From the NCBI GenBank assembly GCA_019321725.1, contig CM033114.1, positions 10,830,278 to 10,894,277 on the forward strand: a stretch of DNA of 64,000 nucleotides, written 5' to 3'. A program made the translations under genes and the position numbers. Of the stretch, positions 11,701 to 64,000 are shown piece by piece (positions within the stretch are counted from its first letter, which is position 1; every line of letters begins with the position of its first letter). Under the pieces are notes generated by a model. It saw only the letters and a program-made list of their open reading frames with translations, was not told the origin of the DNA and searched no databases. Source of the stretch: Paulownia fortunei (Eukaryota; Streptophyta; Magnoliopsida; Lamiales; Paulowniaceae).

Positions 11701-11749
11701 CTTAATAAAAGTTTCTCACCTTAGTCAAAAACTTCTTTTTGTCTTGGGA

Positions 11750-15791: not shown

Positions 15792-15797
15792 AAAACT

Positions 15798-27800: not shown

Positions 27801-30141
27801 TTTGAGAATAGCGTGACTGTGATGGATGTTGTGTTTTTTTATATAAACGGTGATTTTTCTATATACAGGGTTATATGTAACAAAATACTTTTACTATTTT
27901 TCAAAGTGATACAGTTGACAAAAAATCTATATATATACACATATGTTCTACCTTGTCAAAATTATTATTATATCATTATCTATATTTAGTGGTGGGGGTG
28001 TTATAGAGTGGTAAATTCTATATTTATCATAATGAACGTGTCTATATAGGATTTAATTCTATGTTTTTAGGTTTGGATAGCTTGGGAACTAAAATATGCA
28101 TGCATGACAAAGAAAGAGATGCTTAGAATTGTCTCTATCAAATTTTAAATTTTGTCCTATGTGAAGGGGACTAGTTTCACAGCATTCAATCCATTAGTTT
28201 TGGAAATTCTATGACCTAGTTATCTCTTGTATATGTTATATAAGTGTGGTGAAAAATTGAAAGTGGTTGAATACACTTAAGGGTGCCAAAACTATTAATG
28301 TCATGAAGTGCGCAAAATTGTCACGGTAGGAAAAAATCTATTTTAGCATGTTGCGAAGGGAGCTGAACTTGGGATGCTATATCAATGATTTTTAGCCATT
28401 ATATGACATGGTTACATTATTTTTTTATGTTAGGTAAGTTTGATAAAAATTGGGGAGTGAATGAATATGTCTAAGGGTATCAAAATCATAATGCAAATTA
28501 ATGTGGCAGCAAGAAAATGTGAAATTGTGAATCTGTCCCATTTGGTTCATTAATGTGTTCCAGCATAGATGTGGTGCATTTGATCCCTAACATTTAGGGC
28601 GATGTTGTAAGAGTTATAATACATCAATTAAGTGAGGTTAGTATACATTTAAGATGTGGAACAAAGATGCGAAGAAGGTTGAATGTTGTTATAGTTTCTA
28701 TGTGGTAAGGTTGTTAGTTAAATTGAGATTCAAGATCTTTATACTACATTAGGTATAATGAACTTGTTAATTGAGGATGGTGATTGATATCTTGTATTTT
28801 TACATATTGTTTCACATATAGGGTTGAGGAGTAATACTTAAGAAATCTAAAAGTAACACACAAGCGATCAAAGGTAAGTGAAAATCTATTTTCAACTACT
28901 ATGCATGAACATGGTATGTCTTGAAGCAATTATACTTAATGTGTTGATGATATTTAAATTGATTAGATGGCAAGCATAGTATGTACCTTAAGAGTTTTAT
29001 GATTCTTAAAATATGTTGAGAGCAAGATGACTTACATTTCATATTGAACATATCATTCACGAGCATTTGCATGTGCATACACGACATATGAGTATAGTTG
29101 AGTTTCTTGCATGCATGATGTGATTTGAGACATGATTTTTAGAAAGAAAAAAAAAGGTTTTGGTTGGCCACTACTAGTGTACCAAGGCATGCGAGGTGTG
29201 CTTATCTGATATTTCGGGGTGCTGTGGGTGTTACTTGTCAGAGGATTATAGGGGTTGATAGGGGGTGTGCCTCTGGTGGTCATGAAAGTGTGGACCACTT
29301 GCTGTTGATGTCGCTGGTGGGAAGACTTTTAGAGGATCTCAGGGGAAGAGAGGAGGTGGACCTCTGATGATCCCAAGAGATGGCCCTCGGACTGTATCAA
29401 TTTATTTATGACCATGTGATTATTGATATTGTTGAAAACTCTATCCAGTATATAGTAGGTTGGCCAAGGGTCGAATGGTGGAAAATAATTTTGAATGAAC
29501 TATTTTGGTCGAGGACCTTTCATTCCTGACATGATTTCATAGAGATGCATCACATATATGTTAGATTATCTCTTCAGCATTCATAATTTTCACTTACTGA
29601 GCATTAGCTCATGTAGTTCGTGCATTGTAGGTAAATATGGTAATACTTGAGATACTGAGGCTTACTGGGCTAGTTGTTGGAGCTCCTAGAGGCTTCGAAG
29701 GATCACTGTACATAGATGATGACCTATTGGGTTGTGTTGTGGGCATATTCTAATTTTTACAATTATTATTATTGTGTAACTTATTGTCTATATATAAAGA
29801 GTTACAAGATGCAAAATGTCCTTACTTTTTCCAAAAGTATAGGTTATTATTTTGATTTTTTACTCTATTGTATTATAACTTTGGGATGTCGTGTCCTATA
29901 TAACTCTTGAAATTTTATAGTAAATAAGTTTGAGAATAGTGTGATTGTGATGGGTGTTGTGTTTTTTTATATAAATGGTGATTTTTCTATATACAGGGTT
30001 ACTTGTAAGAAAATACTTTTACTATTTTTCAAAGTGCTACAGTTCACAAAAAAACTATATATATACATATGTACACACATGTGCTACCTTGTCAAAATTA
30101 TTGTTATATCAATATCAATATTTAGGGGTGGGGGTGTTATA
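24824..30141 (+). repeat. 5' LTR of element B with internal 2.1-kb tandem duplication
   Basis: Starts TGTAATACCC; ends GGGGGTGTTATA at 30141, where the 3' LTR ends TGTTACA. At 5318 bp it is about 2.2 kb longer than the 3' LTR. The excess is a tandem duplication of period about 2113 bp: 25897-28009 and 28010-30145 follow each other with only scattered differences. The short frames seen in this LTR are not genes: the same blocks recur in every LTR of this group, including both LTRs of A. Confidence 0.93.
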
Positions 30142-30145
30142 GAGT
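25897..30145 (+). repeat. Tandem duplication, two copies of about 2113 bp, joint at 28009-28013
   Basis: Copy 1 begins in GGGTAAATTCTA (25896); copy 2 begins in TGGTAAATTCTA (28009). At the joint, the LTR end GTGTTATA, the three bases GAG and the first bases of the PBS are followed directly by copy 2. GGTA is common to both donor sites (25897-25900 and 30146-30149), so the joint has 4 bp of microhomology. Both LTR-end copies (28005 and 30141) carry TTATA rather than the TTACA of the 3' LTR. Confidence 0.92.
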
Positions 30146-30156
30146 GGTATTAGAGC
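30145..30156 (+). other. Primer-binding site (initiator tRNA-Met type), element B
   Basis: TGGTATTAGAGC, three bases (GAG) after the LTR end, identical to the site in A. It is followed by a leader (30157-30300) that matches A's leader, including the GTAAGTTTTATTT motif. Confidence 0.92.
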
Positions 30157-30308
30157 CCGATTTGTGGTTCTGTAGACTGTTCATGTACATGATATCTGAA
30201 ACTGGTATAGCACAACCATACCAGTAAGTTTTATTTGTTATATAATTCATTTTGTATTTCATGAATAATATTAACCATGTGTTTTAAGATTCTGTATAAA
30301 ATAATGTT

Positions 30309-31500
30309 GAGGCAGATTCGTCAGTAGTAACAGGTACAAAATTTATAGTTGGTATTCTATCTTTAGAGCTATATATTCTATATTATCCACTAAGTATGTA
30401 ATAAGACTGGATAGGGTACTTGATATATATATGACGTCAATTATAATGTTTTAATTCCTTTTGGAGGTTCAAGATCAACTAATTAGATTTTAAGAAGTTT
30501 AGGTTAATTTTGTTATATTGGCTAGGATTATGATATAACCTTTTGTGTAGATTGATTTATTCAAAATTATGCATTGTGGATTATTTTAGGATTATTAAGA
30601 CTTTTAAATTCTAGGTGATGAAAATTTAGAAATTTTATGAAGGCCATAGCAGAAGAATGTTTACTATTTGCAGAAAATAAAGAAGATTGTCAAATTATAA
30701 TTTTCTACAATTACCGTAAAAGAGAGTTGTAAGAAAGAGTTATTATCGATCTTTGAGTTGTGTTAGAATTTTTAGAAATGACCAAGTTTACTAAAATTCT
30801 ATTTATGTGATCTTAGATCTCTTGATACATGTTGAAAAGAAGTTTTTGGGCATGCTATTGATTAACCAACTAATTTTATTCGAGATATAGTTATAAGAGC
30901 AAATCCAATCTCTTTTTTTAGTTTATCATATACACCTATTGGGATTCGATGAACCTTTAGTGATATTGTTATTATATTGGGTAAGGCATTACGGTCTAGT
31001 GCTTCTCCTAAGCAAGCTCCACTTCATATTCACCTAGAAGAAAGATGAATCTTGAGGTTATGTATTATTTATTGCAACTGAATTGAGTAATATTTTGTAA
31101 TAAGTACAATTTTTCATACTAAGGTTTATTTGATAAATTAAGAAGGGCTACTGTGATCTTGAGGATTGATTTTAACTTTGAATTAATTATGAATTTCTTG
31201 TTGTGCTATTGGGTTGACTAATGCCTTAATTATTTTGATATACGTGATGAATAATGCATTTGATGATTTTATATGGGTATTTTTGGGGTGATATTCATTG
31301 ATGATATGTTAGTGTACAACGAGGAAAAATATGATTGACATTTTAATATGATCTTGGAAACTCTAAGGAAGTAGAAAATTATTTGTTCAATTTAGTAAAT
31401 GTGATCTTTTAGTTATGTAATACAATATTTATTTTTAAGGCTAGTAATTTTCTTAAAAAAGTGTCTTTGTAAATATTCAAAACTTCGAGGTTGTACTGAA
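30309..31500 (+). pseudogene. Protease and reverse transcriptase remnants, element B
   Basis: From 30309 the sequence GAGGCAGATTCGTCAGTAG matches A just upstream of its protease, and STKYVIRLDRVLDIY (near 30395) matches A's STEYVKRLGRTPDI. RT is visible near 31205-31310: GLTNALII, MNNAFDDF and FIDDMLVYNEEKYD, the last holding the catalytic FIDD box, then MILETLRK. Stops occur every few dozen codons and the frame changes often. Between the protease and RT motifs (30640-31200) the order is as in A, but residues are hard to follow. Confidence 0.78.
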
Positions 31501-33480
31501 ATAGGGAAGACCAATAAATGTGATAGAAATAAGAAAAGTTTCCTGGCTTAGTGATGTTATTATTCCTCCATAGTTGTTACCGCTTTATTTCATCATAATT
31601 GTTGGTATATGAAATTTGGATAGTTTGCTAAGTGAGAAGAAATCTCTAATTACTTAAAGAGAATTGATTTAAGCTTCGATCGTAACTCAAACTTTAGATA
31701 TAAGTTATTTATTGTGTATTATGGTGTATCTTGTTGTGTTTTGGTATATGTTTGATGCAATAAAGAAAAGTTACTCAACACTCTTCGAGTTAATTAGATT
31801 ATTTATGTAATTCTACATGTGACATTACAAAACCAAAGTACTTTAAATATCTACATACTCAAAAGGAGTTGAACTTGAAGAAAGGATGAATATTACTAGT
31901 AAGTGAATATATTGTATGATCGATCTAACTACAAATGTCATTGGAATGAAATATCTCAATAGACTAATATTCATACAAATTTTACATCATAAACTATTAT
32001 GCGAATTGAGGTTGTATCAAGGATGAATTAGAATAAATGATGAATTATCTGTTTATTAATAGTTTGGTAAGACTAATTTTGATTGATCCAATTTCAAATG
32101 CTCAAAAAAAGGTCGATGAAAGGTTAAGGTTAAGATTAAGGTGAAAGACATAAAAGGCACTTAAATATATTTTTATGATAAGTGATAATAATTTTTTAAT
32201 AAGAGGTAGATATGAAAATGAGGGATAAGAAATTGCAAGACTAAGTTTTAGGTGATGATCATGTACCTTTTTATTTGTTTATTTAGTGGAATGAATGATG
32301 ATTGTGATGTCAAGAAAACGTACATCGAATACTAGATGAGCTATTATGGGATATATTGTTAATATTTGGTTTGTCATCTAAAAAAGTGATAATTGTAAAA
32401 GTGCATATATAGGAATGATTTAGTTTTGATTTTATTTTCCGGTGGAAATAAAAAGCATTCATGAATTTTGTATATGATGGAATTGAGTTATTGTTCATAA
32501 GTTAACTGAATATGGTAATTCTTTCTGAATTTACCCTAGGTATTCCATGGAAATCTATGGAAAGATAAATGTGTAGGAAGTGGATTGACTTTATGGTTTA
32601 TTAGTGTCTATTAGTTCTGATGTAGGTTTGTCCACTTCCTAGAAAATTTTACATTAGGTATTGGGATACAAATTATATTTTAGTATTGTGATTATCCATG
32701 TATCATTGGGCAACCAGGACAAAGAAATTAGACTTTGCAAGATATGCTTAGAGATTGTGCTTTAGATTGTTGATGTCAATTCAGAAATTTTTTCCTTGGG
32801 TGGAATTTCTTATGACAACAATACAATAATAAGACTACTTGAGATAGTTCTCTATGAGACATTATATAGAAAATATAGGTCATCATTTTATTAAAATGAA
32901 TTTGGTATTATTTTTGCCTGAATATGATTTGGGAAATAATAGAAGTTGTAGAACAAAATCCCAATGTATGGAAACTAATTAGAGGTGACCAAAGAGTTAT
33001 GCATATTAAAGAAGAATATTGTTGCAATGTATGATAGGGGATCAAATTTTGGAAGGTAACTTTAATGAAAGGGATTATGTGGCTTAGGCAGAAAAAAAAA
33101 TATTTGAGGATGTTACATACAAACTTGATCCTAGGTACAATGGTTTAGTTTGCATTACTGAGAGAATTGGGGATATTGCCTATAAACTTGATCTCTTTGC
33201 ATCAATTTCTGGAGTTCGTAATGTGTTTCATGTGTTCATTTTAAGAAAGTATATGATGAATCTATGGCATCTACTGAATAAGGAAACAATGGAACTAAAC
33301 TGAGGTCGAAGATATGAAGAAAGACCTATAGAGATTATAGTAAGGGATGTAAAGTAGCTTCAAAATGAGAATATCTCATTAGTTAAAGTACTGAGGAGAA
33401 GTCATTCAACATAATAAGCTACTTGGGAAAGGAAGCAAAAAATGATAATTAAATATCTAGAATTTTTGGGTAAGTAAATT
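31500..33480 (+). pseudogene. RNase H, integrase and chromodomain remnants, element B
   Basis: RNase H is barely traceable (FKYLHTQKELNLKKG near 31840-31885 against A's [14 protein letters not shown]). The stretch 31960-33060 has the length expected for the linker and integrase but no motif I can confirm. From about 33105 the end is clear again: TYKLDP, then ERIGDIAYKLDLFASISGV and VFHVFILRKYMMNL, then RRYEERPIEIIVRDVK near 33305-33355 and chromodomain pieces NISLVKVL and ATWERK (33375-33440). The same domain in A is at 3631-4017. No full function can remain. Confidence 0.8.
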
Positions 33481-33499
33481 TTAGGGATGAAATTTTAAT

Positions 33500-33512
33500 A
33501 AGGAAGGGAGGA
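33500..33512 (+). other. Polypurine tract of element B
   Basis: AAGGAAGGGAGGA directly before the 3' LTR start TGTAATATCC, in the same place as A's tract. Confidence 0.88.
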
Positions 33513-36500
33513 TGTAATATCCAATTATCACACTACTCACTTGGTCAATATGATTTATGCATTACATGTTATTCATAATTGCTTGCATTGAAACTACATG
33601 GTGTGATCCATTTTTCCTTATAATCATATTTGATCATTAAATTTCTAGAAAATCTCATATGGTGTTAGTTGTTGATCATCATAATATAAGTAATCAACAT
33701 TAAATTGAAATAAGAAAAAAATGAGGTTGATCAGTATTGGATGTTAATGGGATATATAGTTTATAATTTTAGAAGCGTTAAAGTTGTTAGTAGTAAGTTT
33801 ATACGGTTTGATTCGATTTCATCCAGGTATTTAGAAAGTATATATTGGTAAATTACATATTTGGGAAAATGGGCACAAGTTAATATGATTCAAAGGTGAT
33901 ATTACAATATTCATTTATGTATAAGATTATATAATTTTTATTATGGATAATTATTTAAGAATCGGGTGACGATTGGGTAAGAAATTAAATGAACGGCTAG
34001 GAAATTAGCTTATGAATTATCTATGGTATCTTGTGGTAATTAAAATGGGATACAATAAAATTAATTTATAGTAAGACACATCTGATTTAGGCTTGAAAGA
34101 TGGGTTCCACAACCTACCACCTTGTGCTTCCTACCAAGCTTAAGCAAGCACCTCAAGTGCCACCTCAAGCTTTCTTTCACTCTTAGCCATTTACCCACGA
34201 CCCTCAACCATTTTTAGTTATTTTTAGCATCCAAACTCATATCAAAATCTCTCTAAGCTGGTCCTAATTGATTCCAAGTGATAGAAGAGGGCAAAGGAAA
34301 CAAAAGGAAGTAGAAATCACAAGTAGAAGCTGAAACTGGCATATGTGAGGTTCATATAATATTTTTACATTTATTTTTATATTATTTGAGGGTTTTGTGA
34401 TTTATTAAGATTCTTATCTTGTTCATGATGATGTTAGAGGTTATTCATAGGGTTATTATGCATAAAAAAATGATTTGTGGTTGCAAACACATAGTAGAAC
34501 CACTAAAGGGCAGAATTTGTGTATATGTTGATTTCTAATTTATTGAGCTTAAAATCTGCAAGAAACCTTGGGTAAATTCTATATTTATCTTCATGAACAT
34601 GTTTATATAGGATTTATGATTATTTATTTAGGTTTGGATAGCTTGGGAATTAAAATATGGCATGACAATTAAAGAGATGCTCAGAACTATCTCCATCGAA
34701 TTTCAAATTCTGTCCTATGTGAGGGGACTGGTTTTAAAGCATTCAATCCATTATTTTTGGAAATACTATGACCTAGTTGTCTCTTATATATGTTATCTAA
34801 GTCTGGTGAGAATTTGGGAGTGTTGAATACACTTAAGGGTGCCAAAACCATTAATGTCATGAAGTGCGCAAAATTGTCATGGTAGGAAAAATCTATTTCA
34901 GTATGCTGTGAAGGGAGCTAAACTTGGGATACTATATCCGTGATTTTTAGCCATTACATTATTTTTTATGTTAGCTAAGTGTGATAAAAATTTGGGAGTG
35001 AATGAATATGTCTAAGGGTATCAAAATCATCATGCAGATTAATGTGGCAGCAAGAAAATGTGAAGTTGTGAATCTGTCTCATTTGGTTCATTAACATGTT
35101 CCAGCATAGATGTGGTGCATTTGATCCCTAACATTTAGGGCGATGTTGTAAAAGTTATAATACATCAATTAAGTGAGGTTAATATACATTTAAGATGTGG
35201 AACGAAGGTGCGTAGAAGGTTGTATTCGGTTATTATTTCTAAGTGGTAAGGTTGTTTAGTTAAATTGAGATTCAAGATTTTTATACTACATTAGGTATAA
35301 TGAACTTGTTAATTAAGGATGGTGATTGATATCTTGTATTTTTACAAATTATTTCACGTCTAGGGTTGGGGAGTAATACTTAAGAAACCTAGAAGTAACA
35401 TACAAACATAAATGAAAATACATTTGCAATTACAATACATGAACATAGTATGTCTTGAAGTAATTATACTTAATGTGTTGATGATATTTAAATTGATTGG
35501 ATGACAAGTATACAATGTACCTTAAAAGTTTGATGATTCTTGAAATATGTTGAGAGCAAGATGACATATTTTCATATTGAACATACCATTCATGAGCATT
35601 CACATGTGTATGCACGATATATGAGTATAGTTGAAGTTCTTGCATGCATGATCTGATTTGAGACATGATTTTCAGAAAAAAAAAAAAAAAAAGGTTTTGG
35701 TTGGCCACTACTAGTGTACCGACGCATGCGAGTCGTGATTTTGTGATATTTTAGGGCGCTATGATTGTTACTTCTGCGAGGATCATAGGGTTTGATAGGG
35801 GGTGTGCCTCTTGTGGCCACGAGAGGGTAGACCACTTAATTGTGCCCTTATTGACGCCGCTGTGGGAAGACTTTTGGAGGATCACAGGGGAAGACAGGGG
35901 ATGGACCTCTAGTGATCCTAGGAGATGGCCCTCAAACTGTGTCAATCTATTTATGGCCATGTGATTATTGATATTATTGAGAGCTCAATTTGGTACATAG
36001 TAGATAAGCCAAGGGCCCAATGGTGGAAAATAATTTTGAATGAACTGTTTTGGTCCAGGAGCTTGCATTCCTAGCATGATTTCATAGAGATGTATCACAT
36101 AGATGTTAGATTATCTCTTCAACATGCATGATTTTCACTTACTGAGCATTAGTTCATGTAGTTCATGCATTGTAGTAAGAATGGTGATACCTGAGACTCT
36201 AAGGCTTATTGGGCTGGTTGTTGGAGCTCCTAGAGGCTTCTAAGGATCACTGTATATAGATAATGACCTACTGGGTTATGTTGTGGCATATTGTAATTTT
36301 TACAATCATTATTATTGTATAAATTATTATCTATATATAAAGGGTTACAATATGCAAAATGTCTTTACTTCTTCCAAAAGTATAGGCTATTATTTTGATT
36401 TTAGAGTCTATCGTATTTTAACTTTGGGATGTCGTGTCCTATATAACTCTTGAAATTATTTAATAAATAAGTTTGAGAGTAGCGTAATTATGATGGGTTA

Positions 36501-36640
36501 TATGTAAGAAAATACTTTTACTATTTTTTAAAGTGCTATAGTTGACAAAAAAATTATATATATATACATGTACACACATGTGCCACATTGTCAAAATTAT
36601 TATTATATCAATATCTATATTTAGTGGTGGGGGTGTTACA
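33513..36640 (+). repeat. 3' LTR of element B (3128 bp)
   Basis: Starts TGTAATATCC and ends GGGGGTGTTACA, followed by the target duplication TGAGG. It matches the 5' LTR throughout but contains only one copy of the 2.1-kb segment duplicated there. The conserved block with GGTTGGCCACTACTAGTG is near 35698-35717. Small frames in it are repeats of LTR sequence, not genes. Confidence 0.93.
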
Positions 36641-41281: not shown

Positions 41282-43033
41282 TGTGTAGTAAAAAAATAAT
41301 TTTTTTATAATAACAAGATTCATCAAATAAATATATTCTCTCGATTTTAAAACGATTCTAACAATCGCATGTATTAAATTCAAATTATACCTTCGAGCAC
41401 TCTTATTGATGTAGGGAACGAAGCAATCAATTGCTATATTCTTGGCTTATCAAAGTCATAGGTATTTACATATCTCTCTTCGATAAGAAAAAGCAACATC
41501 GATTAAAAAGATTCGCTAATGTCTTTAAAATCATTTCTGGTCTAGATTTGGAGTAATACTTGTCCTTTAAACTAATTGATGGATCAAGAACAATATAATT
41601 TGATTTTTTAAGTTCTTGAAATTTTGATGTGAAGAGAACATCAAGAAACTAATTTAGAAAAAGAAAATCAAGATTTTCAATAAACACTTTTCCTTTTTTT
41701 TCTTGGAGAGAAAAATAGAAGACAAAAAAATATTTTTTCTAAAAATCTTAATGCAATTTTCGGCCCTTTTCCAAAAATTTGCCTTTCTCAAACTCTTAAA
41801 GAGTTTGTTAATTTTTTAACCATTTTAAAGTTTGATCTTGGAAGGATTCTAAATATTCCAACAAATCTTATATTTTCTCTCTCCAATATATGTGAACTTA
41901 TTTAAGACTACATTAGTTATCAAAAATTATATACATACATTCTTGATATTAATTTGAACTCTTTAAATAATATCAAGACAGATATATATCAAATATATAT
42001 TATAAATATATAATGGCATGCACAAGAGGCCTGAATGCATACAGAGCATGTCAATAAACAACTAAAACGAATTATACATAATAAAAACCTAAGTTGTTGA
42101 TTTTTATCTCATAAAAATTGGTCACTATTTATTTATTTATTTAAATATATTAATTAAATAAATTTTATTTATTTTAATTATTCTCTTCATATTCTAGTAG
42201 GTTTCTTAAGTAATCCACTTTAATTTTTGGGCTTGAATTTAAAAAGTCCATAAATTAATCCAATTGATTTAATCCCATATTAGTCAATCCAACTAATTAA
42301 TTTTAATTTACTCCAATTGGGCTTCCTAACCAAAATAAGTCCAATCGAATAATCCAATTATTCAATTGAATAATTTAATTTAACCATTAAATTAAATAAA
42401 ATCCTTAATTAATTAATTAATTAATATTAATTAATTTCTAACTATTGAAAAATTCCAAAAATAGAAATGTCACTCTCCATAAAGATGTGTAATCATCATA
42501 GGTTCACAACTAAACTAGTAGTGGGCTTATATTGGAACTTATAAATAATAATTATTTTGATTAATCAATCTAATTAATTAATCCGCTTTGAATTAACTCT
42601 TTAATTGCAAGAACCTCACTATCCATGAAAATACCTAATAAATAATCATAGCAATTTAGTCTTAGGTGAAATAACGAATAAACCTATTTCAGTTGCGAGT
42701 CTCATACACGTATGGTCCTTCCAACAACTAATCTTCTAATTGAATCTTGGGCATAAATTTTATGTTAAAACCCTAAATGATTCAATAATTGTGATCCCAT
42801 TTCAAGTTTCAATGATTCTTAATGAATCAAAATTTATCCTGTCTTGGCTAAGGTTTTTGAATCACGAACTATAAAAATACAAGAGATTCTCTTGTTTAAA
42901 AAGACAAGTGTTGAATTATATGTTGGCTATTGACAAATCTCCATACAAACAGTGCAACACCCAACATACCCCCTTTGTGATTGTCAAGCAATCAAAATAT
43001 ATCTAAGTGCTATAGAATGCACACAAGACTACC
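41282..43033 (-). repeat. 3' LTR of element K, outer part
   Basis: Plus-strand start near TGTGTAGTAAAAAAAT at 41282; runs to the D insertion at 43034. It shares with LTR G and LTR I the AATTAATT-rich stretch near 42370-42440, GAATTAACTCTTTAA...AAGAACCTCACTATCC near 42590 and CCTTCCAACAACTAATCTTCT near 42718. Together with 53542-53974 it makes about 2.18 kb, close to the 2053 bp of LTR I. The outer boundary is placed by TG and by the loss of similarity and may be off by a few bases. Confidence 0.78.
43029..43033 (-). repeat. Target site duplication of element D, left copy (CTACC)
   Basis: CTACC directly before the LTR start TGCTATAATT; repeated at 53542-53546 directly after the D LTR end TTATCA. 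Confidence 0.95.
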
Positions 43034-44687
43034 TGCTATAATTTTAAGGTTGCAAACCCAAGTGTAGGTTGTGTAAAGTAATAAATTTCTCATGAGCCCA
43101 AGATCGATCCACAGGGAAGTTGTTTGAATAATTCAATATTATATTTCTGAAAAAATAAAGTTTATGTGATTCGAAATATATAAAAAAATAATATATGTTG
43201 TAACTAAAGAAAAAACAAAGTAATAAAAGTACAGGGGATTAGGGATCCACTCTTAAGTTTTGGATAGATAAACAATTGTTTATTCTTACCACTAATGAAA
43301 TCTATACATAATGAAGGTTCCAGTGGAAATATATTATCAAATAACTCATATAATAAGGTAATAATGATATTATCTTATTATTTGCAAACAACCAACACTT
43401 GTTTATGGGATCTAATATTTATGTACACCTTTGTCTACAACAAATCAATATTTAACATTAGCAGTCGGTGTAGTAAAACTAAACGTCTAGTTAAATGAAT
43501 CCAAGTATTTATTGTGCTACAGGTGATACATAAATCAAGAATCAATACAAAACAAGTAGTGTTTATATCAAAACTCAAAATAATAATACAACCTACTTAA
43601 ATATTTTCTACCCTTATAATTGTTCATCTTCCTCCATCAAGAGGTTCACCCTTTTTACTCAACAAAATAAAATTTAGAAAGACCTAATAAAAGTAGAAAA
43701 AACTAAAAATAGAAGAGAAACTAGAGAATATATTTCTATTACTACTATAAAACTTAACCTAAAGAAACCCTCTATCCCCCAACTCATACAAGCTAAATAT
43801 ATGACCTGTTTATAGTACTTGGAGTATGCTAGAGGCCAAATATATAACGGAAGAGTTAAATAAATGGTATACTAGTTTTCAAGAGTTGGTAAGTTGTTAT
43901 ACCAAAACCTCTAAATTCTCACATACCCGATTGAATTGTATTTTTAGGTCTGATATAGTCAGATTTTGATGATGAGTAGAACAAAAGTTGTAGACACTTC
44001 TGTGCTTATATATTTTTATATATCATTTATCAAATTTGGCTGCTGGATGATAGAGATATGGTCAAATTACCGAATCATGTCCAAGAGCGGTCCTTTAATA
44101 TTAGCAGTACATTACAATATATATTCTTACCATTTTGACATATTTCCTCACCATCTTGCCTTTAGGAAATTTGTTTATTTACCTCTTGTGTATAACATAC
44201 CAAAATGTTAGTCCAAAATCAATTTGGACTTAAGAGATATGACCCAATTGGTAAAATAAGTATGGATTGGGCTGAACTTTGATCCAAATTTTTGGTGATC
44301 CATTTTGTATAACCTTTTTGGACGAATTTTATGATATAATCAAAACTGAATTGGGTTGAACTTTGAACAAGAAAGTTGTAGTTCTATTTATTAGATTTCA
44401 GATGCAGCAAGATTCAAGTCCATAGGGGCTTTTGATCATGGAGTTATTCCCAAAATACAAAAACTATACAAGTCTGAAAACATGCTTATTTTGATTCAAT
44501 GAAATATTCTTTCCTAATTTGCTCATGACACGTGTGTTGTCTTCTTCAGTTTTATTTTGTTTTTTTTTATCTTTTTTTGTTCATTGATTCCTAACTCAAA
44601 ACATTAATAAAATAATAATAACAAGAATAAAGTAAGAAAAATATAAAGGATTTGATAAAAAAAATATGTTAAAATATGCACTTATCA
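43034..44687 (-). repeat. 3' LTR of element D (1654 bp)
   Basis: Plus strand starts TGCTATAATTTTAAGG and ends AATATGCACTTATCA; the element-strand start is TGATAAGTGCATATTTT, as in E at 10297. It is about 330 bp longer than the 5' LTR because that copy has a deletion near 53073. Confidence 0.93.
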
Positions 44688-44703
44688 AATTTCCCCACAC
44701 TTA
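44688..44703 (-). other. Polypurine tract of element D
   Basis: Minus strand AAGTGTGGGGAAATT lies directly before the LTR start, matching E's tract at 10283-10296. Confidence 0.88.
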
Positions 44704-46424
44704 ACCCTTGCTCGTCCTCGAGCAAGTTTAAAAAAAATATAAACTAATCCACTTTCGTAGGAAATCACGATTGTATTTAGCATATGGAACAAGCCTTTAA
44801 ACCCCAAGGTGTCCTATAGAGAACGAGTTACTGTCTCGTGAGGGTTTTTAGCGGTGATACCCACAAACACCTATGATAACTATCTTCCAACTATTATTCT
44901 TAGGAAGTAACAAAGTAATTTGAAAATGAAATCAAACAAGTGTTGAATTTAATTCTTAGTCATCCAAAAGTCAAATACATTTCCATAATAAGTATACTCA
45001 GTGTGTGTGTGGATATTTAATGTCAACGGTAACAAAACTATACATGCTTCAAATAAGTGAATTCTCATAGAACCTTATAAAAACCATCACCCCATCTCTA
45101 ATGGAAGAGTTAAACATCATAGACTTTTCCTTTGGTACAAATCTCCACTATACCAAAGGCACCATATGAAACAAAAAGTTTTCAACAAAGGTTGTAATGG
45201 GGCTAAAGGGTAGCGATGTGGTTAAGAAATAAAAGGAAATGATGCAATAAAGGTTTCTAAAAACTTTATGGAAATAGAGACATAGAGTTTGTCGGGGAAG
45301 AATTTTCAAACTCCACGAATTTCAACACAGTGGTCTATTATTATTGAATTAGACCCCTCTTATTCATCTTGCAACATTCTATTTTTAGTTGCAACTCTTA
45401 GCACTTTGCAGTTTTTTCTTCTTTTTTTATATATATTTTTTTTCTTTTTCTACTTTTTAGAAGAGAAACTCCCCCACACTTATCTTCTATTTTAAACTAA
45501 ATTTCTTTTGCAAGTTCACCATATCAATGGAATGTTTCTTAAACTCTAAATTATTTTTAGAACAAGGGTTGGATAATAGTATATTTAGGCTAGGTAAAGA
45601 GATATGGTTACCACAAAAAAAAAATATTTATTTATTGAAAGGCTCAAAGTGGCTCACTAGGGGAATGTTCTCTTGGAACATCATATGGGGAACAAGCTGA
45701 TTTGGCAATGGTGCTAGAAAGCTTAATACTTTAATCATTTTTCTAGTGGTGTTCTATCACTCGTTCAACTTAACAGACCAAAAGGAAAAGTTCTAATACT
45801 TAACTCCTACATGTTGAAGATCCAAGTGAAGATTAAAGCGAGGGCATAATAACTTACTATTTTGACATGACTGTCGTCACATTAAATAACATAACTCTTT
45901 GTGCAAAAAAAAATTGACTATAATTATCACAAAAATATATTAACCAAAGAACAACATCAAAGTCCAAAATATCACATATCATCAATCAAACCACATTATT
46001 CATACTTAATTTTAATCATTGAAGATGGAAGAACCTCTACGACTCAATTTATTTTTTGGTAATTCACGAACTTTTGTTAAAAACTTCATAAACTTACCAT
46101 GTTATGCAAAAAATAGGAGTGTGTCTCAAAAGTACTACAATTACCCTTTACTCTGCCATTCTTTTTCATGATTTCAATAGACCATAAGAAAACAAACTTG
46201 ATTATTTTTTTGTGAAATAAAATACTAGAAAAACTCACATTAAACACATAAGTCATGATATCAACTATCCCTTCCCCCAACCTAATCAAGACATTGTCCC
46301 CAATGTAAAAAATAGATAGAAAAGTAGAGTTCAAAAGATATCACGTGAAGTGTGGCTTATTGAAAAAAAAAAGCTGAAATAATATCAAACACACACTATT
46401 AGATAAAACCATTAACAATAAGTA
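44704..46424 (-). other. 3' non-coding region of element D
   Basis: No coding region supported. 44704 to about 45430 matches E at 9593-10290 in opposite orientation, including the single copy (45356-45415) of the sequence that forms the palindrome in E. 45430-46424 has no counterpart in the window because E and F lack this part; it contains several A/T runs and short frames such as 46086-46334 without recognisable motif. Confidence 0.75.
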
Positions 46425-47078
46425 TCACAAACTAAGAGTCAAATTCATTTTACATCTTTGTCTATTGTTCCTGTTAGGCCAATCCACACAAGCTAAGACT
46501 GGATTAGGTTCTGGCACATAATGCTAGAAGTTGATCAATCAGTTGGTCAGGTGTCGAAGCAGAAATGAGGTTTTTTCTTGCAGACGGTGAAATAACACTT
46601 TTTTCACAGCATGATCTACAAAAGATAGCAAACCATCATAAAAATTATTAACATTAAGAATACTTAAAGGTTTTTGGTGAATACTGAGTTGTGCCTAAGA
46701 GACAATTTAGAATAATTCCTCCAGTGTACCAAAACCAGCAGGTAGAATAATGAATGCATCTGCATTATTTAACATGTTAGTCATTCTGTCCGGAATATAT
46801 AACACTTTTTGCTCATCTCCGATGGTCATACCTATGACATTCTATATCGTTAAAGGTTTTGGGATAACTCCCAGAACTTTGACTCCTCCTACATGAGTAA
46901 AAGTAGCAACACTCCCCATTAACCCCAAATTGCCTCTCCCATACACTAAATGAATTTTTGTTTCTATTAAAGTTCTGCCAAGGTTATTGGCTGCCCCTAT
47001 AAACTCACTATTTTTTTCTGGATTAGATCCACAAAAGACATAAATGTAGTTGAATTTGTGAGTCAAAGAGACTTCAAT
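46425..47078 (-). pseudogene. LOG-like cytokinin riboside 5'-monophosphate phosphoribohydrolase, captured copy
   Basis: LOG enzymes cleave cytokinin nucleotides to the active free bases in the cytosol. On the minus strand the copy reads through the whole family: HKFNYIYVFCGSNPEKN (from about 47058), LGRTLIETKIHLVYGRGNLG with the LMG that follows, VLGVIPKPLTI, MLNNADAFIILPAGFGTLEE (family PGGxGTxxE), [20 protein letters not shown], then [47 protein letters not shown] and a natural-looking end NLTLSL with TGA at 46425-46427. Length is about 218 codons, the normal LOG size, without introns. It is dead: ATT stands where ATG is expected (47076-47078), three stops (after PLTI, ELF and IVS) and two frameshifts (near 46608 and 46515). 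It lies on the element's coding strand between integrase and the 3' non-coding region. Confidence 0.93.
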
Positions 47079-47940
47079 TTTTTTTCTTTTTGAAAGTGAG
47101 TTGTGCAAAAATAGAGTGAGTATGGTGTTGTTTATTGAGGTGTGAACGAGGAATATATTTATTGCACATCTTTTTCTTTTGTCAGAAATATTGAAAATAA
47201 GGACACACAAAATTTAAAAATTACCTATTTCCACGTAAATGTACATGTAGTTATGATTGTGGCTCACATCTTCCTCTGGTTTTATCTTCAATAACGGCTT
47301 AAACGCCCTCTATGGGTCGAGGATATGCTTCCCATCTAGTTTTCTTATAAACTAGCAAACAAGATCTTTTAATGTCAGATTCCCAAGACTATAAAGCTCA
47401 TATTCAATTCAAAAGTGATCCCATAAATCAAGAATTTCATATTATACTAATCCACATGAATACGTCTCAAGGGTCAATATAATGTGATCTAAAGACTCCT
47501 TACTTAGCTCATCCATAATGAATTTAAGTTTATTTTCTTGATTTTGAGAAAGCATTTCTAAGGAATGAGACTTTGTGTTGCCAGTCCATGTAGCACATTT
47601 GTGAGAAACTTTCATTTTTTTGGCCCTTTGTTTTTTTGAATATGTGATTTTACCAAAACCAAGCATGTATCTAGTAAACATCTGGAAATTTATGTGAAAA
47701 CTCACCTACTCTTACCTTTGCTTTAATTATCCATCGTATATCCTTTGGGATGCCCTTGTGCATAAGCATCCTTATTCTTTCAATCCTGATTTTATAAATT
47801 TTTAAAATTACATTTTTAGGAAGAAAATGAAATTGCTTCTTGAGAGATAGAAGAATGTCACCCATTTTGAAAAGAACAACAAAAGAGAACAAGAAAAGTA
47901 GAAAAACTTTGTAAAGAGATTTCAGTTGTTTGAGAATTAT
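47079..47940 (-). pseudogene. Unassigned coding-like stretch next to the LOG copy
   Basis: From 47862 down, a frame starts MGDILLSLKKQFHFLPKNVI after a pyrimidine-rich lead (47870-47940) that resembles a plant 5' UTR, and reads on to MLMHKGIPKDIRWIIKAK near 47720, where AAAGGTAAGAG and AGGTGAGT look like splice donors. A second frame, 47705-47442, reads SHKCATWTGNTKSHSLEMLS, NKLKFIMDELSKESLDHIIL and TLETYSCGLV, and after a stop continues LDLWDHF, YSLGNLTLKDLV and KPLLKIKPEEDVSHNH to about 47260. 47079-47250 is A/C-rich and could be the untranslated leader of the LOG transcript. None of this matches Athila pol in E or F as far as visible. I do not recognise the protein; a second captured host fragment is possible. 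Confidence 0.4.
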
Positions 47941-49160
47941 AAAGCAAAACCTTTTGAACAATTTCAAATATTTTTCTTGAAATTTTATTATCATGAAAAT
48001 CTTTGATTATTGTTTTATAAATTTTAGAATTCTCATATACATAATTTCTCAATTCTTGAAGTTCATTGATTTGTAATTTGTGTAATTTTGAAACTTTATC
48101 AAGGTTGAAGTTAAATATTTTGATTGCCCAATAAGCATTACGTTTAAGTTCAACAGTTAAATAACAGGGTTTTGCATAAACTATCCTATAAGTAAACATG
48201 CCTAATAGCTTAAGCTTTATATTCTAAATGGTACATAAAGTTCTTCAAACATGATGTGAGAGATAGAAATTTGCAGTATACATTAATTAAAACACAAATA
48301 AATTCACTTCATTTGTTAATAATGTTATTTGAAAAATGTATCACTAAGCAACCTTTCACCATAATTTCGTAAACACAACAAGAAGTAATCAAAATGGATA
48401 TTTCGTATGTGGTTAATTTATTCCTTTTTAACTCAGTGGGGACGAGTTGCATATAAGATGTTTTGACAATAATTCTATATGCCCAAAGTGTATCGGTAAG
48501 TTTAAGAGATCAATCTTTATGGTTTGGATTAACTGTCATTTTCATAATTTATTTTAATTCCCTATTTACAAGTTCAACTTGTCTATTTTTCTAAGGGTGC
48601 TAAGGGGTTGCAACTTTATATATGATTCCATATTTCCTCGTTAAAGTTCTAAAAACTTTGTTACAAAAATATTTTCCTCCATTACTGATAATAGATCGAG
48701 GAATTCCAAATCGACCTAAAATGTTTTCTTTCAAAAATTTTATCACTATTTTGTGATCATTGTTTTGACAAGGAATTTCGATCCATTTTGAAACATAACC
48801 TATGGAAACTAATATGCAAAGAAATCTAAATGATAATGGAAATGGTCCCATAAAGTCAATACTCCAACAGTTGAAGGTTTCAATCACTAAGATAAGATAT
48901 AGGGGCATCACATTTCACTTTGAAATGGGCCCTAACTTTTGATAATTTTCATAACTTTTGCAAAAAGTGTAACTGTCTTTGAAAAGAGTTAGCTAGTAAA
49001 ATTCACATTTACAAGATTTTTACAGTAGTTTTCTTTGCTGAAAAGTCATCACCACGTACCTTTAAATGACAAATTTTAACAATATTACCTATCTCATTGT
49101 CAAGCACACATCTTTGAAAGACTTGATCAAGACAGTATTTGAATAGGTATGGATCATCCC
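47941..49160 (-). pseudogene. Integrase, element D
   Basis: The zinc-binding part is near 49150-49020 (VLDNEIGNIVKICHLKVRG). The core in 48911-48600 reads WSIDFMGPFPLSFRFLCILV with the first Asp, IPCQNNDHKIVIKFLKENIL, and SIISNGGKYFCNKVF, where the second catalytic Asp of the family (SDGG) is Asn; it ends KYGIIYKVATP at a stop. The C-terminal part, 48199 to about 47945, reads RIVYAKPCYLTVELKRNAYW and DKVSKLHKLQINELQELRNY, ending KVLLYNSQ. The stretch holding the catalytic Glu (HPQTSGQ region) is deleted between 48600 and 48200, and the GPF-type end is replaced by the unassigned stretch. Confidence 0.87.
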
Positions 49161-49199
49161 AATAAAAGTTCTTGACCTATGTCAAAAACTTTTTTTTGT

Positions 49200-49960
49200 C
49201 TTGAGAGTTCCAATGCGATGACATCTATCATTTCACAAGAAAATTAACAATGTCAGCAAACGAAGGTAAAATAAAAATATTAAATAGTTGTCCATCAGGA
49301 AAAGTGTCATTAATGGGTGTGATTTAAAATGAGTCATCACAAATAAGTTATGGCAAATGATTAGCCACTACATTCTCTACTCTTTTCTTATCTCGTATCG
49401 TAATATTAAATTCTTGGAGTAAGAGAATCCACCTAATTAGTCTAGGTTTGGTATTTTTTTTAACAAAGATATTTCAAACCTGCATTATTACTGAAAACAA
49501 CAACTGGTAAGCCAATAAAATAAGATCTAAATTTATCCAATACAAAAACTACCACAAGTAACTCTTTTTTAGTTGTTGTATTCTTATGCATTACCTTCTT
49601 GAGATGCATTAAGTTTGGAAGAAATTATTACTGAAAAGTTCTCATTCTCACTCAAGAAAGAGTATTTCAAATCAATTGGAAAATGTCTCAAATCAACCAC
49701 GGGAGCTTTAGTACTTGATGGAATAGATTTTACTATTGATGATGAAAGCTCTTTAGACGTTGGCTTTCAAAAATAATTTTCTTGTACCTGCAAAAATTCA
49801 AAGAGAGTATTAGCGTGTGCATTTTTACAAATAATTTCACTTTCAAAATAAGTCTCCAAAGAATGTGAAGAGTTAGTGGTAGTAAAGTATTCATGAACAA
49901 GTTCCTCGATTGAATCCAGTTCTTGTACTTCGACATCTTATGCGGGTTGCTTACAAACAT
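49200..49960 (-). pseudogene. RT N-terminus fused to RNase H by a deletion, element D
   Basis: 49960-49590 carries the RT lead-in (SKLNASQEG at about 49590, as in E near 600). It is followed within about 20 bases by TTKKELLVVVFVLDKFRSYF (49575-49520) and the rest of RNase H (SNNAGLKYL, then SRLVCDD-like decay, to about 49260). In F these two points are about 1.1 kb apart and enclose the whole RT catalytic core, including the YMDD-type box. D therefore has no polymerase active site. Confidence 0.85.
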
Positions 49961-50700
49961 TAAACATATTTAGTTCCAAAATCATATTTTCAAATGATAA
50001 CTTCAAAATACCATTCCTACAATTGACTAAAGTATTTTAAGTTGCAAGAAAATGATGACCTAAAATGATAGAAATTTGTGTATGTGTTTGTGGAATAGGC
50101 TCTGTATCCAAAATAATGAAATTGGCTGGAAAGTAAATTTTTTATTAATTTGTACCAACACATCTTCTACTACTCCCTTTGGAACTTTAATCGAACGGTC
50201 AGCTAGTTAAAGTACAACAAAAGTTGTTTTAAGTTCTCCCAATCTAACTATTCATAAACTAAGAAAGGTAGAAGATTTACACTAGTATCAAGATCAAGCA
50301 AAGCATGCTCTGTTCTTATTTTGTTTATGGAACATAAAATGGTTGGACAACCTCGATATTTGTACTTAGGTGGAGTGAATTATGGAATAATTGAACTAAC
50401 ACTTTCAGTTAAAAATGCTTTCTTTTGTACATGATGTTTTCTTTTGATTGTACACAAATCTTTCAAAAATTTATCATAAGGTGGAACTTGCTTGATTGCA
50501 TCCAACAATGAAATATTAATCTTGACTTGTTTAAAAACTTCAAAGATTTCAACATTTGAGTTCAATTTTTGAGTTGCTTGCAATCTTTGAGGAAATGGTG
50601 CTAGAGGTAAATATTTTTCTTTTTCATCATTTTCAAACTTACCTTCTTCAAAATTACCTTCATCGTAAAAATTATTTCCATTCTTCATTTCTGGAGGTGG
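49961..50700 (-). pseudogene. Aspartic protease region, element D
   Basis: 50688-50380 reads LLDAIKQVPPYDKFLKDLCT and KRKHHVQKKAFLTESVSSII, ending at a stop; then ALLDLDTSVNLLPFLVYE near 50300-50245, the active-site region with DLDTS in place of DLGAS. The C-terminal half follows to about 49985 (PIILGHHFLAT-type region). Collinear with F 13325-14179. Confidence 0.85.
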
Positions 50701-52033
50701 ATTAGAAACTTTCTCCTTAGGATGAATAGTCTTATTAATAAATTTACATTCAAAGAGTTGAGACCGAATTAGCCTCCTTGACTAAATTTTCATCTGAAGA
50801 AAAAATGACACTAAGTAGAAGGATTAGGTTGAGGTTGACTAGAAACTTACCTTTTTCTTGAGTGCACAAAGAAGCTGTTAGTGTTGAAAGTACGTTTTTT
50901 ATCTCACTGATGGCTCGTGAAGTCTGATTATTGATGTTTGTTTGTTCATGCATAAATGCTTGCAAATTGTCCTCAAGGAATTTTATATGTGGAGCTGGAT
51001 AAGAAAAAAAATTTGGTGGCTTTTGTGAATATAGCGATTGAGCACAGTTATCATCTCGCCAACATAAATTGGAATGATTTCTCCATTGTGGATTGTAAGT
51101 TTCAGAATTAGGAGAATGGAAATATTTTTTGAATGTGTTCATGAAATTCGTCTGTACTGGAATGTTTGGACATTCATTAGTGGAGTACTACAAAAGTTCA
51201 CAATTGCTACAAACTTCTTCCTACTGTACATATTTGATATACTTTACTTTTTTTAAGCTCCATGGCTTTAACTTTTCTTGTTAAACTAGCAATCCTACTA
51301 GTTAGATAATCTTCTTGACTAAGGTAATATTTTCTTTTCTTACTATTGGTAAGATTAGATCTAATAGAACCTTCTTGCCATTATTGAGATTTTCTGCCAA
51401 ATGATCAAGACTCTGAGGCTTCATCAGGTTCTTTACCAAAACATTCATCATTACACATTATTTCAATAAATTATTTTATTTTACGAGTTAAACCTTCATA
51501 AAAGAAACTAATTGAGAACCATTTTTCAAAACCATGATGTCACCATGAATTAAAAAAATCTTTAAATATTTCCCAACATTGAAAGAAAGCTTAGAATTTT
51601 GAGATAAAATTTGAATTTGTCTTTTCAAAGCATTAGTTTTATGAGTTGGAAAGAATTTTTTCAAAATTCCACCTTGCATTTCTTGCCAAGTGGCAATTAA
51701 CCTAGGTTTTAAAGAATTAAGCCAAGTTTTTGCTTTGTCTTTTAAAGAAAAAGAAAATAATTTAAGCTTGACAATCTCATTTGTGCAGGTGAGATCATCA
51801 AAAGTGGCACATAATTCATCAAATTCTTTCAAATGCGAGTAAGGGCTTTCAGAGTTTAAACCATGAAAATTAGAAAGTAAAGAGATCATACCTGGTTTGA
51901 ATCGAAAGTTATTTGCATTGCGAGGAAAAATAAAATAAGAAGGAGAAGAATTTGGATGAGGTTGCAAGTAATAGTGCATGGTATGCACATGGTGATTCTT
52001 ATTTTCATCGTGGACTCTTTCATTTTCAGCCAT
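50701..52033 (-). pseudogene. Gag, element D
   Basis: The ATG at 52031-52033 opens a 181-codon frame: MAENERVHDENKNHHVHTMH, then FRFKPGMISLLSNFHGLNSE, SPYSHLKEFDELCATFDDL, KLKLFSFSLKDKAKTWLNSL and QGGILKKFFPTHKTNALKRQ, the retrotransposon capsid domain. After a break at 51488, 51142-50750 carries SETYNPQWRNHSNLCWRDDN and KPPNFFSYPAPHIKFLEDNL. A degenerate knuckle, CSNCELL...NEC, lies near 51200-51170 with its His lost. Best preserved gag of this family in the window. Confidence 0.9.
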
Positions 52034-52193
52034 GGTGGAAGTGTGTGGAGATGATTAAAATAAATTTTCAGAATTCTTTCTAACTAAACATCGAGAATTA
52101 TGACTGCGATACCATATAACTATATATCTATAAAAAAAATACACTATATTTATAGAAAAAAAATATTTACGAACCTGAATACTTGCCTTGCCT

Positions 52194-52211
52194 TCCCCCA
52201 CAACAGTGCCA
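52194..52211 (-). other. Primer-binding site (tRNA-Asp type), element D
   Basis: Minus strand TGGCACTGTTGTGGGGGA, six bases (AGTTTT) from the LTR. It resembles TGGCGCCGTTGCCGGGGA with C-to-T type changes, the Athila primer site. Confidence 0.85.
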
Positions 52212-52217
52212 AAAACT

Positions 52218-53541
52218 TTCTACAACTTTAAAGTTGCAAACCTAAGTGCATGTTGTATTAAATAATAAATTTCTCGTGAGTTCGATGCCGATCCACAGGG
52301 AAGTTGTTTGAAGAATTTATGATTATATTTTTTAAAAAATAGAGTTTATGTGATTCAAAATATATAAAAAATAAAGTATGTTAAAACTAAAGAAAATAAG
52401 AGTAATAAAAGTATTAAGGATTAGGGATCCACTCTTGAGTTTTGAATAAAAAAACAACTATTTATTCTTTTTACTTCTCATAATTTCTACTATTAAAATC
52501 CATACATAATGAAGGTTCCAATGGGAAGATATTATCAAATAACTCATACAATGAGGTAATCATGATATTATCTTACTATTTGTAAATTCTCTCTTAACAC
52601 CAATACTTATTTTTGGGATCAAGTATTTATGCATAAATTTATCTACAATAAATCAAGGTTTCATATTAGCGGTTGGTGTAGTAAAACCAAACGTCTAGCT
52701 AAATGAACCCATGTATTTGTTGTGTCATGGGTGATACATAAATCAAGAATCACCACAAAAGTAGGGTTTATATCAAAACACAAAATAATAATACAATATA
52801 CTTAAATATTTTCTACCTTTATAACCCTTCCTCTTCTTAGATCAAGAGGTTCACCATTTTTCCTAAACAAAATAAAATTTAGAAAAACATAATAAAAGTA
52901 GGAAAAACTAAAAATAGAAGAGAAACTAGGGATTATGTTTCTATTACTACTAGAAAACTTAGTCTAAAAAAACCCTCTATCCCCCAACTCGTACAAGCTA
53001 AATACATGGCCTATTTATAGTACTTGGAGTATGATAGAGTCCAAATATATAATAGAGAAGTTAAATAAGTGGTCAATTTAGGCTTAAAAGATATGACCCA
53101 ATTGGTAAAATAAGTCAGGATTGGGCTGAACTCTGATCCGAATTTTTGGTGATCTATTTTGTATAATTTTTTGGATGAATTTTCTGCTATAATCAAGACT
53201 AAATTGGGCTGAGCTTTCAACAAAAAAGTTGTAGTTCTATCTCTTAGATTTCAAATAAAGTAAGATTAAGGTTTATAAGGTTTTTGATCATGGAGTTATG
53301 CTCAAAATACAAAAACTGCACAAGTTTAGAAATATGCTTCTTTTGATCTAATGAAATATTCTCTACCAATTGCTCATGAAACGTGTTGTCTTCTTTAGTT
53401 TGTCACTTTTTATCTTTTTGATCTCTTTCTATTTATTGATTCCTAGCACAAAATATTAATAAAATAATAATATTAACAAGAATAAATCAAGAAAAGTATA
53501 AAGGATTTGACACACAAATATGTCAAAATATACACTTATCA
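52218..53541 (-). repeat. 5' LTR of element D (1324 bp, internally deleted)
   Basis: Plus strand starts TTCTACAACTTTAAAG (the expected TG is TT here) and ends TACACTTATCA. Compared with 43034-44687 it lacks about 330 bases at 53073, where TTAAATAAGTGG runs directly into TCAATTTAGGCTT. The rest aligns throughout. Confidence 0.92.
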
Positions 53542-53974
53542 CTACCATCGTGCCTCCAGTCTGAGGATTATTCGTGTACTATTACAATATAGAAATTCTT
53601 ATTTCGACAGGCAAAGCCTTTAGCTATAATTTTTTTATGGGCAATGCTCAGTGTACTTGTTCTCTAACAAACACCCATATACATGTAATTGCGTCTCTAA
53701 GCTAATGCCGATGGAAAGCGATATCCTTACCTTATGAGCATACATCGTATGTATGAGTCTTATTGTATGTTCTATGATCGCCATCATATGCACAGCCATG
53801 CCCCATAGTTAAATTTGATCTAAGAACTTTATCTAATACGTGGTAAAAAAATTCATGATAAAAGATAAAGAAAGTTCCTTTTTATTAATATAATTTCCAA
53901 TAAGATTGTCTTTATAAAAAGAAAGTATAAAATGCACCCAATCTAATTGGTGCACTCGACATCCTACTCTAACA
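53542..53974 (-). repeat. 3' LTR of element K, inner part, starting with D's right target copy
   Basis: 53542-53546 is the duplicated CTACC. Ends ATCCTACTCTAACA at 53974, the TGTTAGAGTAGG start on the element strand, directly after the minus-strand tract GTGAGAGAT. It aligns with 18640-18999 of LTR G and, reversed, with the first 430 bases of LTR I. Confidence 0.9.
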
Positions 53975-62504: not shown

Positions 62505-63025
62505 TCCTTTAACAATAACAGCAACTTACGGCCTATGTTTTTACTATTTTGACATATTTTATCATCATCTTATCTAAGCAAACTTGTTTATTTACCCCTT
62601 TTGTACAACATATCCAGATTTCAACCCCAAATAAATTTGGGCTTAAGAGATATGACCCAATTGGTCAAATAAGTCAACACTGGGTTGAACTCTTATTCGA
62701 ATTTTGGTGATTCATTTTGTGCAACCACTTTAATGAATTTTCTACTATAATCAATATTGAATTAGGATGAGCTTCCAACATAAAAGGTGTACTTCTATCT
62801 CTTGACTTTCAAATAAAATAAGTTTTAGGTCCATAGGGATTTTGATCATGAAGTTATGCTTAAAATACAAAAACTGCACAAGTCTGGAAACATGTTTCTT
62901 TTGATCTTTTTATATTCATTGATTTCCTAACACAAAACATTAATAAAATAATAATATTAACAAAAATAAAGTAAGAAAAGTATAAAGGATTTGATACAAA
63001 AATATGTCAAAATATGCATTTATCA
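62505..63025 (-). repeat. Truncated LTR L of the E/F/D Athila family
   Basis: From about 62505 it aligns with the last third of the D and F LTRs (CTATTTTGACATATTTT at 62546; F near 16965) and ends AATATGCATTTATCA at 63025, the normal LTR end. No polypurine tract follows, so 63025 is an outer element end. The other two thirds of the LTR and any internal part are missing. Confidence 0.85.
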
Positions 63026-64000
63026 ATTTATACATAAATTTCTCATACATATCATATCTGCATAAGTAATCGAATAAAAAAATGACTTCTAAATGAAAAT
63101 AAGAATCAATTCTAATTTAATATAATACAAAACAAAGACAAACTTACAAATGTTGGAAATATAATCCAAATATTAGAGTAATTCTTACAGTTTCATCACA
63201 ATCTTACGAGTCATTATTAAGTGTTCAAAATTATCTTATTATTGTGAAAAAAGAAAATGGTTCTTCAAATAAAATGTAGTTTATATAAGTAGCTACACAT
63301 TTGTAAAATACTACTTGATGAAAAGTCTTCAATAAAAAAATTAATTTTAATGTTTTAAATGTGATGTTGTGAAATCATATTTCAAATTGTAACAGAAATG
63401 ATATGAGAATCTATTTCTTATTGGACAAATAAAACTAAAAAGTAAATGAAACGCAAAGTATTAGACAAAACTCAATAAAATAAATAAATTATATAAATGT
63501 GAATGAAAAAATGTTATAAGAAAACAATGAATTAAAAATATATTAAAAAATAATGAAGTTCTTAATTATTTTTATTGTGAAAGAGAACTATTGTTTAAAT
63601 AAAAATAATTCTTAACATAATAAAAATTTATAATAACATGTCAAAAATGGATTTGTTAATCAAACTCGCTTCCAAAAACTATTGCATACATTTAAGTATT
63701 ATTTCATAATCATTATCCAAATGAAATGTATTCTAAAAAACCTACACTTATGATTTCTTACAACATAAAAATTAGAATAATTTCAAATAATAAGTAAAGA
63801 ACATGAACTCAAATAAGTTAAAAACTAACAAATAAGTATAAAAAATAACAATAATGAGTAATTTTTGACTAGTTAAAACCATGTTTGTAGAGATAAAATC
63901 ATAATAAAGTTTTAATAGTACGAATACCTTCTAACACTTTATATTAATAATAAGAACCTAAAATTTTGAAAAAAATAAAATTTCAAATAATTTAAAATAT
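63026..64000. other. AT-rich stretch, nothing recognised
   Basis: No frame, LTR or motif identified. It does not continue the RT of J, so J must have been deleted or rearranged around L. Confidence 0.6.

Follow-up and report, generated by a model that had tools for sequence, protein, structure and literature searches.

A dead, intronless LOG coding sequence in an Athila-like retrotransposon of Paulownia fortunei, probably carried as inherited cargo

Plant LTR elements are well known to capture host genes, as judged from the available text of PMC13317346 and PMC5664825. The accessible part of PMC9289625 states that extra frames of plant Ty3/gypsy elements are most often without known conserved domains, and that of PMC1142308 describes a poly-A retrogene between pol and the LTR of the Populus element Tpb1-1, with no database match there. 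In the closest described case, PMC9289625 lists a YgdH/LOG domain in consensus sequences of Gypsy LTR retrotransposons from Citrus sinensis and Citrus clementina and, when no filter is applied, from Populus trichocarpa, citing Steinbauerova et al. (2011) for this domain in Gypsy elements. The kind of element described here is thus already in print, and the statement of a first-pass annotation of this DNA that LOG in Athila was undescribed is not supported. Steinbauerova and co-workers are also said to have reported, in 2011, two Athila-like elements with similarity to LOGL4.

The window, i.e., the whole 64,000-nucleotide stretch of P. fortunei DNA analyzed, contains an element of this kind, hereafter D, with the following features.

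43034..53541, minus strand: element D, an Athila-like Ty3/gypsy LTR retrotransposon with LOG (LTR pair, target copies, gag and integrase pieces)
52218..53541, minus strand: 5' LTR of D (LTR-pair alignment)
43034..44687, minus strand: 3' LTR of D (LTR-pair alignment), exceeding the 5' LTR by an extra stretch at about 43869-44218
52194..52211, minus strand: primer-binding-site-like stretch just inside the 5' LTR (by eye; placed as in Calypso and Diaspora)
44688..44702, minus strand: polypurine tract adjoining the 3' LTR (by eye)
43029..43033, no strand: target-site copy CTACC (sequence comparison)
53542..53546, no strand: target-site copy CTACC (sequence comparison)
51488..52054, minus strand: gag piece, PF03732 (1.2e-11)
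48600..48914, minus strand: integrase core piece, PF00665 (5.1e-07; 30.3 bits, just under the cut-off of 32.6)
50380..50781, minus strand: open piece whose motif is found again in the Xanthoceras model P0015, between its LOG pieces (pairwise match)
46425..47078, minus strand: LOG-like coding sequence, intronless and dead (start lost, three in-frame stops, one stretch frame-shifted)

With an LTR pair, CTACC target copies, gag and pol pieces, and, recognized by eye, a primer-binding-site-like stretch and a polypurine tract, D is an LTR retrotransposon, and its ends are as clear as had been claimed. Its provisional assignment as Athila-like rests on the gag-pol motif, which we take to be a mark of Athila, on the placement of the primer-binding site, and on the layout; no Athila ORF-1 domain was detected in the pieces scanned. 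The open piece at 50380-50781 had no Pfam match, and from its position it is provisionally placed in the gag-protease region. In Calypso and Diaspora, the primer-binding site likewise lies a few bases inside the LTR (PMC1142308, available text). The short open pieces of D between integrase and LOG (47082-48000) matched no family above a curated cut-off, and nothing else in the window resembled them.

The LOG-like frame runs on the minus strand from 47078 to 46425 and comprises 217 codons plus a stop after NLTLSL. Its read-through translation (P0002) matched PF03641 Lysine_decarbox in Pfam (2.4e-24; 86.4 bits, cut-off 27) and TIGR00730 in NCBIfam (1.2e-34; 119.6 bits, cut-off 96.35), and, in a protein search, a Paulownia protein of 217 amino acids (7.2e-87). 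These matches rule out chance similarity and place the read-through of D in the LOG protein family. The longest open piece of the frame matched Arabidopsis LOG3 at 1.8e-14 and, taken alone, had no Pfam match at 0.001. In a tblastn search, the Paulownia protein had a single match in the window, between its residues 1-211 and positions 47078-46446 (68%); since 211 codons correspond to 211 residues, the frame is uninterrupted by introns. The gag and integrase-core pieces are likewise on the minus strand. The position, normal length, lack of introns, and coding-strand orientation ascribed to LOG in the first-pass annotation are thus borne out. So is its reading that the copy is dead, as it yields no whole protein: residue 2 of P0002 is Ile where the relatives carry Met (start codon lost), in-frame stops occur at residues 80, 125, and 129, and residues ~160-188 are encoded in another frame. 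In addition, one Gly is altered in each of the motifs GGGxxGLMG and PGGxGTxxE, both of which are whole in the Paulownia relative. The C-terminal end was also rightly considered natural, in that a tail of the NLTLSL type occurred in 71 of the best 120 of 579 related proteins (described below) and in none of 120 LOG1/3/4/8-type proteins.

Further repeats were found in the window. A second Athila-like element (11522-17144, minus strand) is ~80% alike to D over 13219-16685. It has ~1.1 kb absent from D (its positions 12125 and 13219 match D 49581 and 49591), and because a third piece shares part of this sequence (858-1072 versus 12985-12819), the ~1.1 kb was probably lost in D. The third Athila-like element (plus strand; pieces 1-1072 and 9577-11525) was apparently inserted into the second at ~11522 and is itself interrupted by an LTR element at 1071-9543, whose LTR pair is 91% alike and at whose ends no clear target copies were seen by eye. 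A further piece of the LTR family of D, alike to both D LTRs, lies at 62505-63029, and 24820-36638 contains three copies of a long direct repeat, which are 85-87% alike across 2-3 kb. The 3' part of the second element, a possible place for LOG, is absent from the window as one piece. No LOG was detected by tblastn in the other Athila-like pieces; as 1-1072, 9577-11525, and 11522-17144 do not span the part of the element where LOG would lie, the integrase/LOG joint is seen once.

A single LOG in the window, with a joint seen once, would also be expected if a LOG retrocopy had entered D after D itself inserted. A search for insertion boundaries belonging to LOG itself, which the first-pass annotation had named as evidence against capture, gave no sign of such an event: the flanks of 152 and 165 bases shared no exact repeat of at least 10 bases, and the 524 bases after the LOG stop contained no sense A-run of at least eight. 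Moreover, LOG is in sense and sits where extra frames are usually found (PMC7264820, available text), and its relatives occur in many copies, all of which make a later, independent insertion extremely improbable.

The extent of decay also bears on when LOG arrived. Over 1292 aligned bases, the two LTRs of D share 85.5% identity (K2P 0.163). If 1.3e-8 or 7e-9 changes per site per year are assumed, the insertion would date back perhaps ~6 or 12 million years, respectively. In a neutral simulation scaled on LTR divergence, simulated copies had 0-4 stops and remained 80-89% identical to the starting protein after half of this divergence (the share of one lineage), and had 0-6 stops and 65-77% identity after the full divergence. 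D has 3 stops, and its pieces, each counted separately, share 125/158, 19/26, and 21/30 residues with the Paulownia protein (165/214; 77%). Because the decay of LOG is near that expected from the LTR divergence, D probably carried a nearly intact gene at its insertion, and the remaining difference between D and the Paulownia protein is probably due to older divergence from the latter.

Relatives of the LOG of D amounted to 579 protein matches, of which the best 120 are considered here. These are predicted proteins clustered at 90% identity, and clusters may mix species. They comprise Reevesia (62 clusters, 221 member sequences), Orobanche (29 clusters from three species, 735 members), Rehmannia (9 and 19), Xanthoceras (4 and 7), Paulownia (4 and 5), and unnamed sources (12 and 113), with two Orobanche clusters, P0086 and P0095, alone containing 244 and 328 member sequences. 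Paulownia, Rehmannia, and Orobanche belong to Lamiales, Reevesia to Malvales, and Xanthoceras to Sapindales, the order of Citrus. The strict motif PGGxGTxxE was present in 97 of these 120 relatives, compared with 113 of 120 LOG1/3/4/8-type proteins (fragments and chimeras counted), and its lack in 23 relatives indicates that some copies are decayed. In the Xanthoceras model P0015, two LOG pieces enclose ~40 residues resembling the piece of D at 50380-50781 (pairwise E 7e-15); the match is strong over only these ~40 residues, with weak alignment on both sides. For all relatives except P0015, we infer that LTRs and gag-pol lie beside them. Among 1715 candidate proteins of ~750-2,380 residues, none contained a D-type LOG, i.e., there was no fused gag-pol-LOG model, and of 10 stretches of viral contigs that matched a pattern, none encodes a close relative.

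Such relatives could be an ordinary expanded host gene family whose link to the element is accidental, and the sources do list them as plant proteins, several under the name cytokinin riboside 5'-monophosphate phosphoribohydrolase. However, their member counts are far above the 24 LOG genes of peanut and the 19 of Moso bamboo, as given in the accessible parts of the sources; in peanut, most LOG genes consist of 7 exons separated by 6 introns (PMC13257298, available text). The Reevesia gene names among the best 120 of 579 cover 19 chromosome prefixes, and the D-like motif between the LOG pieces of P0015 and the presence of LOG in Gypsy consensuses elsewhere (PMC9289625, available text) also speak against a host family, which we consider very unlikely.

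To place the LOG of D among these proteins, a gene tree was built from D, 48 of the best 120 relatives, 33 of the 120 LOG1/3/4- and LOG8-type proteins, and one bacterial LOG; its root rests on one distant row, and its host LOGs represent the LOG1/3/4 and LOG8 groups. D and the 48 relatives formed one clade (96/86; 100/98 when Xanthoceras is set aside), with the ordinary LOG1/3/4/8-type proteins on the opposite side of the tree (99/98). Within the clade, D grouped with eight Paulownia-type rows (100/99), and these with Rehmannia and Orobanche (100/99). D has a long terminal branch (0.53), as would be expected of a copy in decay. Nested with Paulownia inside a clade of several species, the LOG of D looks like old inherited cargo. 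The capture proposed in the first-pass annotation therefore stands as far as a whole, intronless LOG of the spliced-transcript type in an Athila-like element is concerned, and is not supported as regards a recent capture in this genome.

Xanthoceras branched outside Reevesia plus Lamiales, although Xanthoceras and Reevesia are malvid rosids and would be expected to group together to the exclusion of Lamiales. This placement may reflect horizontal transfer, separate captures, paralogous lineages of old date, or an error in the position of the root. If Athila-like elements had made separate captures in different plant lineages, the clade would represent one unsampled donor subfamily of host LOGs. 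The tree leaves room for this, as its hosts are only of the LOG1/3/4 and LOG8 types, and the available text of PMC11593424 divides angiosperm LOGs into four groups; the Xanthoceras rows, moreover, have no NLTLSL-type tail (0/4), keep the ordinary pocket, and branch outside the rest. Against it, D, the Lamiales, and the Reevesia rows form one clade at 100/98 with a common tail and a lost pocket Lys, and we regard separate captures as unlikely. The multi-copy relatives, the single clade, and the motif in P0015 together suggest that D most likely stems from an old LOG-carrying Athila lineage, of which it would be a decayed member with LOG inherited as a third, 3' reading frame. The earlier idea of a mobile ancestor carrying LOG is, on the same evidence, probable.

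The catalytic pair proposed for CgLOG consists of Arg99 and Glu122, and its prenyl pocket, likewise proposed, of Met96, His97, Lys100, Glu125, and Trp129 (PMC4979012, available text). Across 118 of the best 120 of 579 relatives, the catalytic Arg was kept in 107 and Glu122 in 113, and D retains both letters. By contrast, the prenyl-pocket residues were not retained as a set: Lys100 was kept in 2/118 rows (both Xanthoceras) and Glu125 in 3/118 (both Xanthoceras rows among these). His97 was replaced by Gln in all 50 Lamiales-type rows (12 Paulownia-like, 8 of them unnamed; 9 Rehmannia; 29 Orobanche), compared with His in 61 of 62 Reevesia rows. Trp129 was kept in 88/118 and was Arg in 25 of the 29 Orobanche rows, 28 of which had His for the pocket Glu. 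All seven residues were kept in 120/120 LOG1/3/4/8-type proteins, a set gathered by likeness to Arabidopsis LOG3 and LOG8. Columns near-invariant in ordinary LOGs varied less than others in the copies of Reevesia (0.10 versus 0.18) and Orobanche (0.07 versus 0.13), a pattern as under purifying selection; this sign is indirect, because gene prediction favors intact frames.

The predicted structure of the Paulownia relative (32-row alignment) had a mean pLDDT of 85.6, and its top structure match was Arabidopsis LOG3 (2a33; E 2.9e-22, TM 0.95 when normalized to the target and 0.76 to the query length). The product of live copies is probably a nucleoside-5'-monophosphate phosphoribohydrolase, perhaps with an altered base preference. 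LOG proteins with every critical residue may still differ in product (PMC11593424, available text), so the pocket change is a lead rather than proof. The label cytokinin-activating, attached to LOG at first, agrees with the mostly kept catalytic Arg and Glu and is uncertain for the branch of D because the proposed prenyl-pocket residues are changed.

An Athila lineage that took up a LOG of this type would have begun long ago, when an element incorporated the spliced transcript of a host LOG; the simplest route would be a template switch in the course of reverse transcription. The LOG frame would then occupy the place of the env-like frame of other Athila elements and have been copied along with the element since; at the protein level, the relatives remain within the LOG family, most of them retain the catalytic Arg and Glu, and the new tail is common to many. 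D would have brought LOG in at its insertion, gene and LTRs decaying together thereafter, as the decay comparison suggests. The product of a live copy would be made in cells where the element is active and might still free cytokinin, favoring cell division where the element moves, or, the proposed prenyl pocket being changed, might act on another nucleotide. A more far-reaching scenario, tentative and on balance doubtful, is that a single captured LOG has persisted in the lineage from roughly the time when rosids and asterids separated, with the catalytic pair conserved and the base pocket rebuilt stepwise (first at Lys and Glu, then at His in Lamiales and at Trp in Orobanche), and that its own phosphoribohydrolase would act on a nucleotide other than an ordinary cytokinin one, e.g., a host-defense signal, with hundreds of copies in the parasitic broomrapes. 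If elements in several plant orders carry a LOG that keeps its catalytic residues, this would be a cargo enzyme open to testing, acting on host cytokinin or on another nucleotide. Copies carried by elements may also inflate the number of LOG genes counted in some annotated plant genomes. In the literature searched, which included few subscription journals, we found none of the pocket changes, the tail, the breadth of the clade, or element-borne LOG in Orobanche, Reevesia, or Paulownia.

The LOG of D is thus a real but dead coding sequence, most likely inherited cargo of a known kind rather than a new capture, and its relatives show an unexpected active-site pattern. By description alone, D resembles the LOG-carrying Ty3/gypsy elements of Citrus and Populus in having a LOG domain inside a plant Ty3/gypsy element, there in other plants. 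With Arabidopsis LOG3 (2a33) and LOG8 (1ydh) it has the family and the predicted fold in common, the catalytic Arg and Glu being mostly kept in the relatives, and it differs from them in being dead and without introns and in its new C-terminal tail and changed prenyl-pocket residues. Athila, Calypso, and their kin likewise have an extra sense frame between pol and the 3' LTR, although that of D is a recognizable host enzyme and not env-like (PMC7264820; PMC1142308; available text). Finally, Bs1 of maize and the retroduplicated NLR genes of pepper likewise place intronless host coding sequence in an LTR element (PMC13317346; PMC5664825; available text); whereas these are lineage-specific captures, the LOG of D is apparently old cargo, present in many copies across plant orders.
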